Assembly: GCA_016201015.1 (NCBI GenBank) | Contig: JACQDQ010000167.1 | Span: 1-41,535 of the forward strand | DNA from: Pseudomonadota bacterium | Lineage (GTDB): Bacteria; Pseudomonadota; Alphaproteobacteria; CACIAM-22H2 | Direction of reading: 5' to 3' | Length of the DNA stretch: 41,535 nucleotides | Shown here: positions 37,119-40,985 of the stretch, one piece after another | How the letters are laid out: each line of letters starts with the position of its first letter | How positions within the stretch are numbered: the first letter of the stretch is position 1 | Position numbers and translations under genes: made by a program | Notes under the pieces: model-generated | What the model was told of the DNA's origin: nothing | The model's database searches: none | What the model saw: only the letters and a program-made list of their open reading frames with translations

Positions 37119-37913
37119 CTACGCGTCCTTCGGCTCGACGTCGAGCCGCGCAACGATGCCCTGCAGCTCCGGCTTCGGCGCCGGATAGCGCGCCATCACC
37201 AGCGGGTCGTGGCCGGGGATGATATGGCGCGGCGAGGCGGCCAGCCGGCGCAGCGCGCCGAAGGCTTCGAGCGTGTCGCCCAGGTGATAGACGAAGGGGA
37301 AAGGCCGCCCCTGCTCCATGTTGGCGTAGTAGTGGCTGGCATCGGAGGCGAGAACCAGCCAGCCGCGCCGCGTCCACACGCGCGCCACTTGCAGGCCGGC
37401 GGTGTGGCCGCCGACCCAATGCAGGCTGAAACCGGGCGCGAGTTCCGCGGCGCCGTCATGGAACTGCACGCGGCCGCGAAACACTTCGCGCACCATGCCG
37501 GTCACATTGTCGACATCGAAGCCGCCGCGGAAATAGTCGTGGCACATGTGCCGCCCGGTGACGAAGGCCATCTCGCGGTCCTGCAGGTGAAACGTCGCCT
37601 GCGGGAACAGGTCGTGGTTGCCGACATGGTCGTAATGCATATGCGTGATCACCACGTCGGCGACGCCCTTGGCCTCGATGCCGAGACGGCTGAGCCCGTC
37701 GGTCGGACAGCGCAGGAATTCCCGCCGCCGCCGCGTCGCCGCTACCTGGTTGAAACCGGTGTCGACGATGAAGCTGCGTTGCGGGCCGACCACCGCCCAG
37801 ACGAAATAGTCCATCGACATCGGCCCGTCATGCGGGTCGGCGGCGATGAAATTCTCCTGCGGCCGGCGATCGACCCGCGCGTAGCGGACGGCGTAAACCT
37901 CGAACGGCTCCAT
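37119..37913 (-). CDS. MBL-fold hydrolase, N-acyl homoserine lactonase-like
   Basis: This 264-aa protein carries the metallo-beta-lactamase metal motif H91, H93, D95 and H96 (ITHMHYDHVGNHDLFP), a further histidine in VGGHTAGLQVARV and an aspartate in LASDASHYYANM. A DTGFN segment lies at about 51. The family (AttM/AiiA-like) includes quorum-quenching lactonases, but many members act on other lactones or esters. No lactone-signal genes are seen in the window, so the function should be read broadly as a lactone or ester hydrolase. It lies 44 bp after a 3-hydroxyisobutyrate-dehydrogenase-like gene and is probably co-transcribed. Confidence 0.85.
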   Translation of the reverse strand: MEPFEVYAVRYARVDRRPQENFIAADPHDGPMSMDYFVWAVVGPQRSFIVDTGFNQVAATRRRREFLRCPTDGLSRLGIEAKGVADVVITHMHYDHVGNHDLFPQATFHLQDREMAFVTGRHMCHDYFRGGFDVDNVTGMVREVFRGRVQFHDGAAELAPGFSLHWVGGHTAGLQVARVWTRRGWLVLASDASHYYANMEQGRPFPFVYHLGDTLEAFGALRRLAASPRHIIPGHDPLVMARYPAPKPELQGIVARLDVEPKDA

Positions 37914-37957
37914 TCATATCCCCATTTCAGACAACGCTTGCGATGCACCAGGACATT

Positions 37958-38869
37958 CTACGGGCCAAGCGTCGTGCCGCTCGCCCGCTCGAGGAACTTG
38001 ACCACGGCGGTGTGATCTTCCGCTTCGCCGAGCGCCTGCGCCGCATCTCCCCAAATCTTCGCGCAGAGCTGAGTAAGCTGGCTGAAGGCGCCCGTCGTCT
38101 TGGCAAGGCGTTCGGCCGTGCGCAGATCCTTCGCCATCAAGCCCAACGAAAAGCCGGAGGCGAAGCCGCGCGACAGGATCTGCTGCTTGAACTTGTTCTC
38201 CGTACTGGTGTTGCGCCCGGTCGAGGCATTGAGCACGTCGACCATCGTCTCCGGTGCCAGCCCGAATTGCTTCCCGGCCAGCAGCGCCTCCGCCGCGATC
38301 CACAGGCCGGCGGCGGAGACCAGGTTGTTGAGCGCCTTCATCGCGTGACCCGAGCCGAGCGGGCCGGTGAGAAATACCTGCTTCGCCATCGTCGCGATGA
38401 GTGGGCGCGCGCGCTCGATGATTTCCGCGGTGCCGCCGATCATCGTCGCCAGCGAGGCGTCGGCGGCGCGCTTGACGCCGCCAGACACCGGCGCATCGAC
38501 GAGGTGCACATCTCGCTTGGCGAGGACCTCGCCCAGCGCGCGCGTGCCGACTGGGTCGGAAGAGCTCATGTCGATGACGATCGTGCCGGGGCGCAGGCGG
38601 TCGGCGAGACCGCCGCCGAGCAGAACCTCGCGCACAACATTGCCGTCTGGCAGCATGGTGATGACCGCGTCCAGCGCTGCGCCGTGGTCGTTGTAGGAGA
38701 GCGCGATCGTGCCGCGATGAGCCGCGAGGAATTTTCGCAACGTCTCCTCATAGTTGTCGGCGGCGTAGACACGATAGCCCGCCGCCACGAGATGCGGCGC
38801 CATCAGCCTGCCCATATTGCCGACGCCGATGAAACCGACCGCGGCCGGCGGCCGCAATGGTGAGCGCAC
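37958..38869 (-). CDS. NAD(P)-dependent beta-hydroxyacid dehydrogenase (3-hydroxyisobutyrate dehydrogenase family)
   Basis: This 303-aa enzyme has the Rossmann motif AVGFIGVGNMGRLMAPHLVAAGY and the substrate-binding VDAPVSGGVKRAADASLATMIGG. The catalytic lysine lies in GSGHAMKALNNLVSAAGLWIAAEA. Family members oxidise 3-hydroxyisobutyrate, tartronate semialdehyde-type or related beta-hydroxyacids. It lies between asd and the MBL hydrolase on the same strand, with a stable hairpin in the 62-bp gap behind asd. The substrate is not determined. Confidence 0.9.
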   Translation of the reverse strand: MRSPLRPPAAVGFIGVGNMGRLMAPHLVAAGYRVYAADNYEETLRKFLAAHRGTIALSYNDHGAALDAVITMLPDGNVVREVLLGGGLADRLRPGTIVIDMSSSDPVGTRALGEVLAKRDVHLVDAPVSGGVKRAADASLATMIGGTAEIIERARPLIATMAKQVFLTGPLGSGHAMKALNNLVSAAGLWIAAEALLAGKQFGLAPETMVDVLNASTGRNTSTENKFKQQILSRGFASGFSLGLMAKDLRTAERLAKTTGAFSQLTQLCAKIWGDAAQALGEAEDHTAVVKFLERASGTTLGP

Positions 38870-38931: not shown

Positions 38932-40014
38932 CTATTGCAACAACAGCTCGGCGATCTGCACCGCGTTGAGCGCCGCGCCCTTCAAGAGCTGATCGCCGGC
39001 GGCGAACATCGCGATGGACCTGCCGCTGGAATCGCTGAGGTCGGAGCGGATGCGGCCGACCAGAATGTCGTCCCTGCCGGTCGCATCCTTGGGCATCGGG
39101 AAGTAGTTGCGCTCGATGTCGTCGACGACTCGCACGCCGGGCGCCGTTTTCAATATTTCGCGAACCTCATCGGCGGCAATCGGACGCTCGCATTCGACAT
39201 TGAGGGCCACCGAGTGCGCCCGCAGCACCGGCACGCGGACGCAGGTCGCGGTCACTCGGATCGTCGGATCGCCGAAGATCTTCCGCGTCTCGTTCATCAC
39301 CTTCGTCTCCTCGTCGTTGTAGCCGGTGCGCGGATCGATCTTGGTGTTGTGGCTGAACAGATTGAAGGCGTAGGGGTGCGGCAGGATGCGGTTCCTGTAG
39401 ATACGGCCGTCGAGATAGGCGCGCGTCGATTCGCGCAGCTCTTCCATCGCCGCGGCGCCGGCGCCCGAGGCCGCCTGATAGGTGGAGACAATCAGGCGCC
39501 GGATCGGATTCAGCCGATGGATCGGCCATAGCGGCGTGATGGCGACGATCGCCGCGCAGTTCGGGTTGGCGATAATGCCGTTGTGCAGCCGGATCGCCTC
39601 GGGATTGATCTCCGGAATGACCAGCGGCACGTCGGGCTCCATGCGGAACGCCGAGGAATTGTCGATGACGACCGCGCCTTGGCGGACCGCGGCCGGAGCG
39701 AAGTGACGGGAGATGGCTCCGCCCGCAGAGAAAAAGGCGATATCGACGCCCTCGAAGCTGCGCTCAGTCAGCTCTTCGACCTCAACGCCGGCGCCGTTGA
39801 ACGGCAGCGACTTGCCGGCCGACCGGGCCGAGGCGAAGAGACGCAGTTTGGCGAGTGGGAAGCGCCGGTCGCTCAAGCATTGCAGCAATTCAACGCCGAC
39901 CGCGCCGGTGGCGCCGACCATGGCAACCACCGGCGACGCTAGTCGGCCGCCTAGCCGCGTGCCGCTTGCCGAATGCGGCGAAAGAACATCGACGGTCGAT
40001 TGAGTCGGGCACAT
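38932..40014 (-). CDS. asd: Aspartate-semialdehyde dehydrogenase, plant-like type
   Basis: This 360-aa NADPH-dependent enzyme converts aspartyl phosphate to aspartate semialdehyde, the branch point to Lys, Thr and Met. It has the nucleotide motif VAMVGATGAVGVELL, catalytic C153 in ANPNCAAIVAITPL (the common NCST is NCAA here), VSTYQAASGAGAAAMEEL, and the substrate arginine and base histidine in TATCVRVPVLRAHS. The stretches AFNLFSHNTKIDPRTGYNDE and ETRKIFGD resemble the plant-type form more than the E. coli form (family knowledge, not a search). The first 26 residues are an extension before the fold. GAAGGAGAC precedes the ATG. A leader with a short ORF and hairpin lies directly upstream. Confidence 0.92.
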   Translation of the reverse strand: MCPTQSTVDVLSPHSASGTRLGGRLASPVVAMVGATGAVGVELLQCLSDRRFPLAKLRLFASARSAGKSLPFNGAGVEVEELTERSFEGVDIAFFSAGGAISRHFAPAAVRQGAVVIDNSSAFRMEPDVPLVIPEINPEAIRLHNGIIANPNCAAIVAITPLWPIHRLNPIRRLIVSTYQAASGAGAAAMEELRESTRAYLDGRIYRNRILPHPYAFNLFSHNTKIDPRTGYNDEETKVMNETRKIFGDPTIRVTATCVRVPVLRAHSVALNVECERPIAADEVREILKTAPGVRVVDDIERNYFPMPKDATGRDDILVGRIRSDLSDSSGRSIAMFAAGDQLLKGAALNAVQIAELLLQ

Positions 40015-40058
40015 GTCTGTCTCCTTCGTTGAGCCGGAGAGACGAGAGCCCGAAACGA

Positions 40059-40089
40059 CAAGGCCCCGTCCGGTGCCGGCGGGGCCTTG
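40059..40089 (-). terminator. Terminator/attenuator-like hairpin in the asd leader
   Basis: On the minus strand CAAGGCCCCG (40089-40080) pairs perfectly with CGGGGCCTTG (40068-40059), a 10-bp GC-rich stem with an 11-base loop. GTCGTTTC follows, a weak U-rich tail. It lies 45 bp before the asd ATG and after a short Thr/Lys-rich ORF, the place expected of an attenuator. Confidence 0.6.
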
Positions 40090-40110
40090 AGGGTCGCTAT
40101 GTCGCTCGGA

Positions 40111-40185
40111 TCAGCGCACAAGCACCTCAGACACCCCGGCGGGGGTCTTCTTGGCGGCCGTGCGCTTGGTTGTCGAGCGAAGCAT
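40111..40185 (-). CDS. Candidate 24-aa leader peptide upstream of asd
   Basis: An ATG-initiated ORF of 24 codons ends in TGA 22 bp before a terminator-like hairpin and about 100 bp before asd. Residues 5-14 are TTKRTAAKKT: four Thr and three Lys in ten codons. Both are end products of the pathway that Asd feeds. The ORF also lies inside nested stems: 40174-40180 with 40102-40108 (7 bp), 40160-40166 with 40113-40119 (7 bp), and an inner hairpin 40141-40148 with 40129-40137. No strong Shine-Dalgarno is visible, which weakens the coding case. A purely structural leader RNA is the alternative. Confidence 0.45.
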   Translation of the reverse strand: MLRSTTKRTAAKKTPAGVSEVLVR

Positions 40186-40253
40186 GGAGCGAAATTATCT
40201 CAGCCGATGCCGCCTGTAAAGCGGCGCTTCCGTCCGATACGATATGATCCCGC

Positions 40254-40985
40254 TCAAACGTCGATATCGACGACGATGGGGACATGGTCGCTCAAGCCGG
40301 AGCCGCACCAGTCCTCGAATGTGCCGAGGCTGAGGTCCCTCACCTTGCCGATCCAATGCTCGGGGAGGAAAACATAGTCGATGTGATAGGTCGGGCCGTC
40401 CTTCCTGCGGTCGCGCCAATAGAGTGTCGGGACGGTCTCCTTACCCTGTGCTTCGCCACGGATCCTATGATAGGCGCTGACCAGGCCGAGAGCTTCGAGC
40501 ATCTCGACCTTGCTCGCGTGGTTGATGCGCCATCCCGGCTTATCCCAGATGACGTTGCTGTTGAGGTCGCCGGCAACGATGGCCGGCCGCTCGGTGAGGA
40601 AAGCCCGGTATCTGTCGAGCGCCCGGCGCAACGGCCCGGCCTGACGTTTCCGGGTGGCGCCGGCGCTCGCGTTCTGCGCCCACACCGCGAGCAGGTTGCA
40701 CGCCGTCGGCCCGGAGATATGGACCGGCGCAATGTAACGAAGTTTTGGGTCGTAGAGCTCCGACAGGCGCGCGGCGTAGCCGTTGAAGGTGAAGACGGCT
40801 AGGCCCTTGTGCGGGTTCCGCCCGATCCACACTGGCTCACATTCCGTCCAGGCGGACTTTCGACGTGCCCGAAAGCGGCCCGGTTCGGCGCATTCGCAAA
40901 CGATGGCGATGTCCGGTGCGAGACCGAGCAGGACATCGATCTTGCGGTCCAGCGCCATGCCGCAGTTCCAGGCGACGATCCTCAT
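40254..40985 (-). CDS. Endonuclease/exonuclease/phosphatase (EEP) family protein
   Basis: This 243-aa protein has the EEP fold motifs in order: MRIVAWNCGMALDRK at the start, the metal-binding glutamate in IAIVCECAEPG, GDLNSNVIWD in the middle, HIDYVFLPEHW, and the catalytic SDHVPIVVDIDV at the end. No signal peptide is seen, so an intracellular nuclease or phosphatase is likely. It ends 69 bp before the asd leader ORF on the same strand. Family members range from DNA repair nucleases to inositol phosphatases; the substrate cannot be told from sequence. Confidence 0.87.
   Translation of the reverse strand: MRIVAWNCGMALDRKIDVLLGLAPDIAIVCECAEPGRFRARRKSAWTECEPVWIGRNPHKGLAVFTFNGYAARLSELYDPKLRYIAPVHISGPTACNLLAVWAQNASAGATRKRQAGPLRRALDRYRAFLTERPAIVAGDLNSNVIWDKPGWRINHASKVEMLEALGLVSAYHRIRGEAQGKETVPTLYWRDRRKDGPTYHIDYVFLPEHWIGKVRDLSLGTFEDWCGSGLSDHVPIVVDIDV

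Follow-up and report, generated by a model that had tools for sequence, protein, structure and literature searches.

Attenuators of the thrL-thrABC, trpL and hisL type combine a leader open reading frame (ORF), which carries codons for the end product of the pathway, with mutually exclusive RNA helices designated 1:2, 2:3 and 3:4. In the ermC-type translational attenuators of antibiotic resistance genes, a ribosome stalled on the leader peptide frees a masked Shine-Dalgarno sequence. In Sinorhizobium, rnTrpL/peTrpL has a leaderless upstream ORF (uORF) at the 5' end of the transcript, and transcription attenuation of its target trpE is proven (PMC10117765, PMC7298713). SEP5 of Sinorhizobium meliloti is a Thr/Lys-rich small ORF located within the 5'UTR of a gene named as "aspartate dehydrogenase". 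Its translation was shown by Ribo-seq and Western analysis, its Thr/Lys cluster lies near the 3' end, it was reported as conserved in Sinorhizobium only, and a possible role as a leader peptide was proposed without structure, mechanism or test (PMC10117765). Furthermore, uORF-dependent attenuation has been published for a DUF1127 gene of S. meliloti (PMC12218461), and an asd RNA motif, RF01732, is listed for Lactobacillales (PMC2864571).

The locus described here lies in the alphaproteobacterial contig JACQDQ010000167.1, the entire 41,535 nucleotides of which were analysed (the window). Like the thrL, trpL and hisL attenuators, it has a leader ORF with end-product codons and exclusive 1:2, 2:3 and 3:4 helices. 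It differs from them in preceding an aspartate-semialdehyde dehydrogenase (ASADH) isozyme gene in Alphaproteobacteria, in bringing Thr and Lys (sometimes Met/Ile) codons together, in a probably leaderless ORF, in a weak U-tract in the window and in two extra helices, 4:5 and 5:6, that reach the Shine-Dalgarno sequence. It is thus likened to the thrL/trpL family but not classed as a plain member, since membership calls for an intrinsic terminator (a hairpin with a U-run) and the window has the hairpin without the U-run. With rnTrpL/peTrpL it shares the alphaproteobacterial host and probably the leaderless uORF; those leaders use Trp codons before trpE, and no Shine-Dalgarno relay is described for them in the cited passages (PMC10117765, PMC7298713). 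As in the ermC type, a stalled ribosome would free a masked Shine-Dalgarno sequence; here the putative signal is amino acid starvation, and the structural change would run through additional helices. RF01732 and the lysine riboswitch are likewise RNA elements before asd but differ in structure and, for RF01732, in bacterial group. With gathering thresholds, no Rfam family, Thr_leader, RF01732 and the lysine riboswitch included, was matched anywhere in the window; for the leader at E <= 1, one meaningless miRNA match was the sole result, and assignment of the leader to a known RNA family was rejected.

An earlier reading of this DNA from its letters alone (the sequence-only reading) had proposed a Thr/Lys attenuator before asd and knew of none described in this group. 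That holds for the wider leader family but not for the related Sinorhizobium suggestion, SEP5 (PMC10117765). Beyond SEP5, neither the wider family nor the relay nor the thrS and dapA versions were found described in the literature searched; Vitreschak 2004 and Lopatovskaya 2010 may mention some leaders. The leader may represent a new variant of ribosome-dependent attenuation, for which a putative relay to the Shine-Dalgarno sequence is plausible.

The putative regulated gene is a second asd

The gene behind the leader and the elements at its 5' end are the following:

38932..40014, minus strand: second aspartate-semialdehyde dehydrogenase gene (asd), the putative regulated gene, by NCBIfam PRK14874.1 and TIGR01296.1
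40111..40185 (read from 40185 to 40111), minus strand: leader mini-ORF of 24 codons, MLRSTTKRTAAKKTPAGVSEVLVR, with codons 5-14 as candidate regulatory Thr/Lys codons
40186..40220, minus strand: promoter-like stretch, TTTACA at 40215-40220 and GATAAT at 40194-40199, about 8 nt 5' of the mini-ORF ATG

The asd protein scores 433 bits with PRK14874.1 (cut-off 223) and 398 bits with TIGR01296.1 (cut-off 324). Another copy, 44% identical, is found on a different contig of the same genome (G000:C337), with no Thr/Lys leader before it. Exactly two ASADH copies are present in 30/30 sampled genomes with the asd leader, compared with at least two copies in about 75 of the 387 alphaproteobacterial genomes sampled overall. 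The presence of two copies in all leader genomes indicates that the proposed switch controls a second isozyme. The sequence-only reading was correct in placing the leader before asd but missed that this asd is a second isozyme. If true, such control would explain why many of these bacteria retain a second asd.

Downstream of asd (37119-38869, minus strand) lie genes for a HIBADH-like dehydrogenase and a lactonase-like metallo-hydrolase, both below curated family cut-offs and with no obvious role in the aspartate pathway.

A Thr/Lys-rich and probably leaderless leader ORF

As the sequence-only reading had described, the 24-codon ORF on the minus strand holds four Thr (Thr5, Thr6, Thr9 and Thr14) and three Lys (Lys7, Lys12 and Lys13) at residues 5-14. 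Among 309 ATG starts of ORFs of 15-40 codons in the six frames of the window, it alone has at least seven Thr/Lys per ten residues, and no such ORF occurred in 20 dinucleotide-shuffled windows, which places its Thr/Lys density beyond chance. This bears on the notion that the mini-ORF is a chance frame and the GC hairpin behind it the terminator of the upstream gene. The gene called EEP (40254-40985, minus strand; no Pfam match at E <= 0.001) does end 69 nt upstream of the leader ORF on the same strand, as such a notion would have it. The upstream gene differs between genomes, however, while the leader, the hairpin and their spacing to asd stay constant. Conservation and the shuffled-window test together rule out a chance ORF or an upstream-gene terminator, leaving this explanation with hardly any probability.

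In 41 leaders compared, no purine-rich Shine-Dalgarno sequence precedes the ATG of the leader ORF, and C-rich bases are kept at -7..-1. A -10-like box some 8 nt from the ATG points the same way, so that the mini-ORF is probably leaderless, with a putative transcript start at or next to the AUG. A strict sigma-70 scan of the window did not report the TTTACA/GATAAT stretch.

Thr and Lys account for 51% of residues 2-17 in the 41 leaders (337/656), and the window peptide ranks among the members that are less rich in them. Apart from Thr/Lys and a C-terminal Gly-rich part, the leader peptides are weakly conserved. This is relevant to the idea of a trans function for the leader, as RNA or as peptide, like that of rnTrpL/peTrpL, besides or in place of control in cis. 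Small leaderless attenuator RNAs that also act in trans have been described in Alphaproteobacteria (PMC7298713). The poor conservation of the peptide and the fact that all collected leaders with both Thr and Lys clusters precede asd speak against it, rendering action in trans unlikely.

Six RNA segments with alternative partners

Between the start of the mini-ORF and that of asd, six segments can be delimited:

40144..40179, minus strand: segment 1, the Thr/Lys codon region, pairing with the 3' end of the ORF (1:2)
40111..40140, minus strand: segment 2, GGGG and the 3' half of the ORF, with segment 1 as partner or, on a ribosome stall, segment 3
40077..40097, minus strand: segment 3, the left arm of the GC hairpin, GCGACCCTCAAGGCCCCGCCG, delimited by folding
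40055..40072, minus strand: segment 4, the right arm, CGGACGGGGCCTTGTCGT; 3:4 (-28 kcal/mol) is the hairpin previously read as a terminator
40036..40051, minus strand: segment 5, GGGCTCTCGTCTCTCC, with segment 4 (as anti-sequestor) or segment 6 as partner
40015..40027, minus strand: segment 6, the asd Shine-Dalgarno region, GAAGGAGACAGAC, masked by segment 5

The structures named by the sequence-only reading were all located on the minus strand: an outer 7-bp stem of TCGCTCG (40174-40180) with CGAGCGA (40102-40108), a second of AGCGCAC (40160-40166) with GTGCGCT (40113-40119), both perfect, an inner hairpin CCCCGCCGGGG at 40134-40144, and the GC-rich hairpin CAAGGCCCCG..CGGGGCCTTG, which ends 45 nt upstream of the asd ATG (40014). 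Its view of this last element as a terminator stands in part only. The hairpin is kept in all leaders collected, but its U-tract in the window is weak, and a strict consensus scan found no intrinsic terminator at the window leader. Beyond that reading, a further conserved hairpin (5:6) lies over the asd Shine-Dalgarno sequence, and the right arm of the GC hairpin could open it.

Pairing specificity was assessed by cutting the leaders into segments and comparing the pairing of own segments with that of segments exchanged between clades, with permutation at the level of the 16 clades. Helices 1:2 (z -6.35, p <= 5e-5) and 2:3 (z -6.5, p <= 5e-5) proved to be sequence-specific, and the same holds for 4:5 (z -3.1, p 0.0015) and 5:6 (z -3.55, p 0.0005); the value for 3:4 (z -7.7) is inflated since its arm boundaries were picked by folding. 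The control pairings 1:3, 1:4, 2:4, 2:5, 3:5 and 3:6 showed no preference for own sequence in this test, and 4:6 was borderline (p 0.02). The pairing of the leader GGGG with the left-arm CCCC, suggested earlier from the letters, is helix 2:3 and is strongly supported by this test. Cross-clade permutation and the stall-site folds described below both support 1:2, 2:3 and 3:4 as mutually exclusive helices.

Column counts in a MAFFT alignment (A3) give a compatible picture, in which the unslid register is best or tied best for covariation. The observed 5:6 pairing was matched by 5/500 shuffles. For the 2:3 core, the register of which slides from clade to clade, counting in the window register therefore gives 73% pairing with covariation that is modest, and counts for 4:5 are modest and suggestive. 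Per-sequence shuffling of 4:5 gave a weak signal (mean z -0.8), the cross-clade test being more informative. RNAalifold detected 3:4 alone on this alignment, since the remaining helices are incompatible with it and vary in their location. Complementary segments can be seen by eye for 4:5 (L042, GGACGGGCC/GGCCCGTCT), for 5:6 (L043, GTCTTCC/GGAAGAC; L134, GACCCTGT/ACAGGGTC) and for 2:3 (L129, CTTCGGTT/AACCGAAG; L140, GGGACGTTG/CAACGTCCC).

These helices could also be read, in line with the sequence-only reading, as pure transcription attenuation, with 3:4 as terminator, 2:3 as antiterminator and no role for the hairpin near the asd Shine-Dalgarno sequence. Helices 1:2, 2:3 and 3:4 form the classical trio, and in Bradyrhizobium, L004 and L128 the hairpin is followed by a U-run, the leader ends in GGGGCTTTTTTGTT and the 5:6 hairpin is absent, consistent with this mode. 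In the window and many relatives the U-run is absent, and 5:6 and 4:5 co-vary, such that pure transcription attenuation is possible but falls well short of an even chance. Given the weak U-tract here and the lack of 5:6 in relatives with a U-run, we think that masking of the Shine-Dalgarno sequence probably accounts for at least part of the control in the window form.

Conservation across Alphaproteobacteria

The three closest asd orthologues bear the leader (MMRFVTKTTTSKTTTDGGRPEACA, MMRSTKTPTTKTKTLTGALRASAC and MSPKTKATTKTKKPFRASVIARA), and equivalents were found before asd in about 40 sequences. Their shared layout is a putatively leaderless, Thr/Lys-rich ORF of about 25 codons, followed by the GC hairpin and asd. 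Named bearers include Bradyrhizobium (MFTTTKRTTKTTTASGARGGVRT and similar), Acidisphaera, Yoonia and Marivivens, and MAG bearers include Rhizobium sp. Q54, Rhodospirillaceae, Caulobacteraceae (as labelled) and other alphaproteobacterial MAGs. A covariance model of the leader (R1), run on 80 fetched asd relatives, placed it directly 5' of asd in 15, all of them in or assigned to Alphaproteobacteria or "Proteobacteria". Two extra matches, both weak (E 0.002 and 0.007), come from MAGs outside Alphaproteobacteria and lie on the opposite strand. Among the 387 sampled alphaproteobacterial genomes, the leader is seen in many families; it is missing before several asd orthologues that are 66-74% identical to the window asd.

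The alignment of related asd upstream regions that the sequence-only reading had put forward as a check thus favours its candidate: the ORF, its Thr/Lys codons and co-varying stems recur before asd across alphaproteobacterial families. Its choice of Thr and Lys as regulatory codons was apt but incomplete, as the leaders of Yoonia, Marivivens and the Caulobacteraceae MAG also employ codons for Met and Ile, which are also end products beyond ASADH. If the switch operates as proposed, this class, to which nitrogen-fixing symbionts belong, would gain a widespread and nearly unstudied amino acid switch.

Leaders were also seen before asd of other lineages. Among these, L181 and L208 have Thr/Lys-rich ORFs of another kind, in which the cluster sits at the 3' end; the asd gene that follows is the single copy, and the terminator is U-rich. 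They are possible counterparts of Sinorhizobium SEP5 and, in their terminator, differ from the leader described here.

Folding around a stalled ribosome and the proposed relay

Folds of the window RNA follow the predicted alternatives. With a ribosome stalled at codons 6-13 and the RNA cut after segment 3, 14-16 bp of helix 2:3 are formed; for a stall at codons 10-11 and the RNA cut after segment 5, the minimum free energy structure is 2:3 together with 4:5. Once the ribosome has passed codon 18 or been released, 3:4 and 5:6 remain and nothing else does. At equilibrium, the full-length RNA favours 3:4 and 5:6 for every stall site, and the switch must therefore be kinetic, acting during transcription as in classical attenuators. 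Shine-Dalgarno accessibility at equilibrium shifts little on average for the stalled and released states (0.37 and 0.32 vs 0.27, p 0.0002 and 0.001), and equilibrium folding alone is consequently no proof of the relay.

In the proposed mechanism, RNA polymerase would start at or beside the ATG of the leaderless mini-ORF. With an ample supply of charged Thr- and Lys-tRNA, the ribosome would reach the stop codon, and segment 2 would be either covered or engaged with segment 1. Hairpin 3:4 could then form and, in members that have a U-run, terminate transcription; 5:6 would mask the Shine-Dalgarno sequence, keeping asd off. When Thr or Lys is scarce, the ribosome is predicted to stall on codons 5-13, upon which segment 2 would pair with segment 3. 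Segment 4, released in this manner, would be able to pair with segment 5, and the Shine-Dalgarno sequence would be freed, with both transcription and translation of asd on.

A Thr/Lys attenuator of some kind at this locus is very likely, and ribosome-dependent attenuation as the control of a second, inducible asd is likely as well, if a little less so. Operation of the Shine-Dalgarno relay in the window itself is judged slightly more probable than its absence. Of the stall-driven refolding foreseen by the sequence-only reading, the alternative helices are thus borne out by prediction, but not termination of transcription in the window, where the U-tract is weak and the Shine-Dalgarno hairpin is conserved. 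Such a relay, if true, would couple a stalled ribosome to a masked Shine-Dalgarno sequence via several hairpins.

Leaders of the same design before other genes

The R1 model also matches before genes other than asd, and in the genome of the window such matches are carried by contigs C499 (thrS-like), C60 (dapA-like, passing TIGR00674) and C16 (ABC transporter). The loci are as follows:

L251, L254-L257, L259-L262, L265, L267, L268, L270, L271: short thrS paralogues (many of about 400 aa) with poly-Thr leader ORFs and the same hairpin design
L274, L276, L282: full-length thrS with poly-Thr leader ORFs and the same hairpin design
L253 (own genome, C60), L269, L279, L281, L283: dapA-like genes, same leader design, one to four Lys codons
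L252 (own genome, C16), L273: ABC transporter ATPase, leader model match
L263, L264, L272, L280: DUF1127-like small genes, leader-like matches

An example before a thrS paralogue, the gene of which passes TIGR00418, is MHRVAHLCTTTTTTTRFGGPDGVVMR. The ratio of Lys to Thr is 70:155 in asd leaders vs 8:89 in thrS leaders (Fisher p 4e-6), and every collected leader with both Thr and Lys clusters has asd as its downstream gene. The abundance of Lys before asd and its scarcity before thrS support the view that the codons follow the amino acid of the gene concerned, which the leader would sense. For dapA, the leaders are few in number and modest in Lys content. The swap of codons among asd, thrS and dapA-like leaders amounts to a natural experiment. 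Taken at its widest, the proposal is that a six-segment relay (1:2/2:3/3:4/4:5/5:6) unmasks the Shine-Dalgarno sequence of an inducible second asd on Thr/Lys stalling, and that the same architecture, with its codons exchanged, serves thrS and dapA-like genes as an RNA-based aspartate-family starvation regulon across Alphaproteobacteria; this combined claim is tentative, and its chances are put at a little under even.

The matches before DUF1127-like genes, along with the weak U-tract, lend some credence to Rho-dependent control, as in the S. meliloti DUF1127 uORF (PMC12218461), with the hairpins secondary. A rut-site model, however, needs neither co-varying 1:2, 2:3 and 3:4 helices nor amino-acid-specific codons, making Rho a rather improbable explanation for the asd leader.

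The leader peptides before the ABC transporter ATPase genes (L252 and L273) have no obvious cluster of regulatory codons. The frame of the thrS-like gene in the genome of the window (L251) seems to be lost after about 190 residues, by an assembly error or as a pseudogene.
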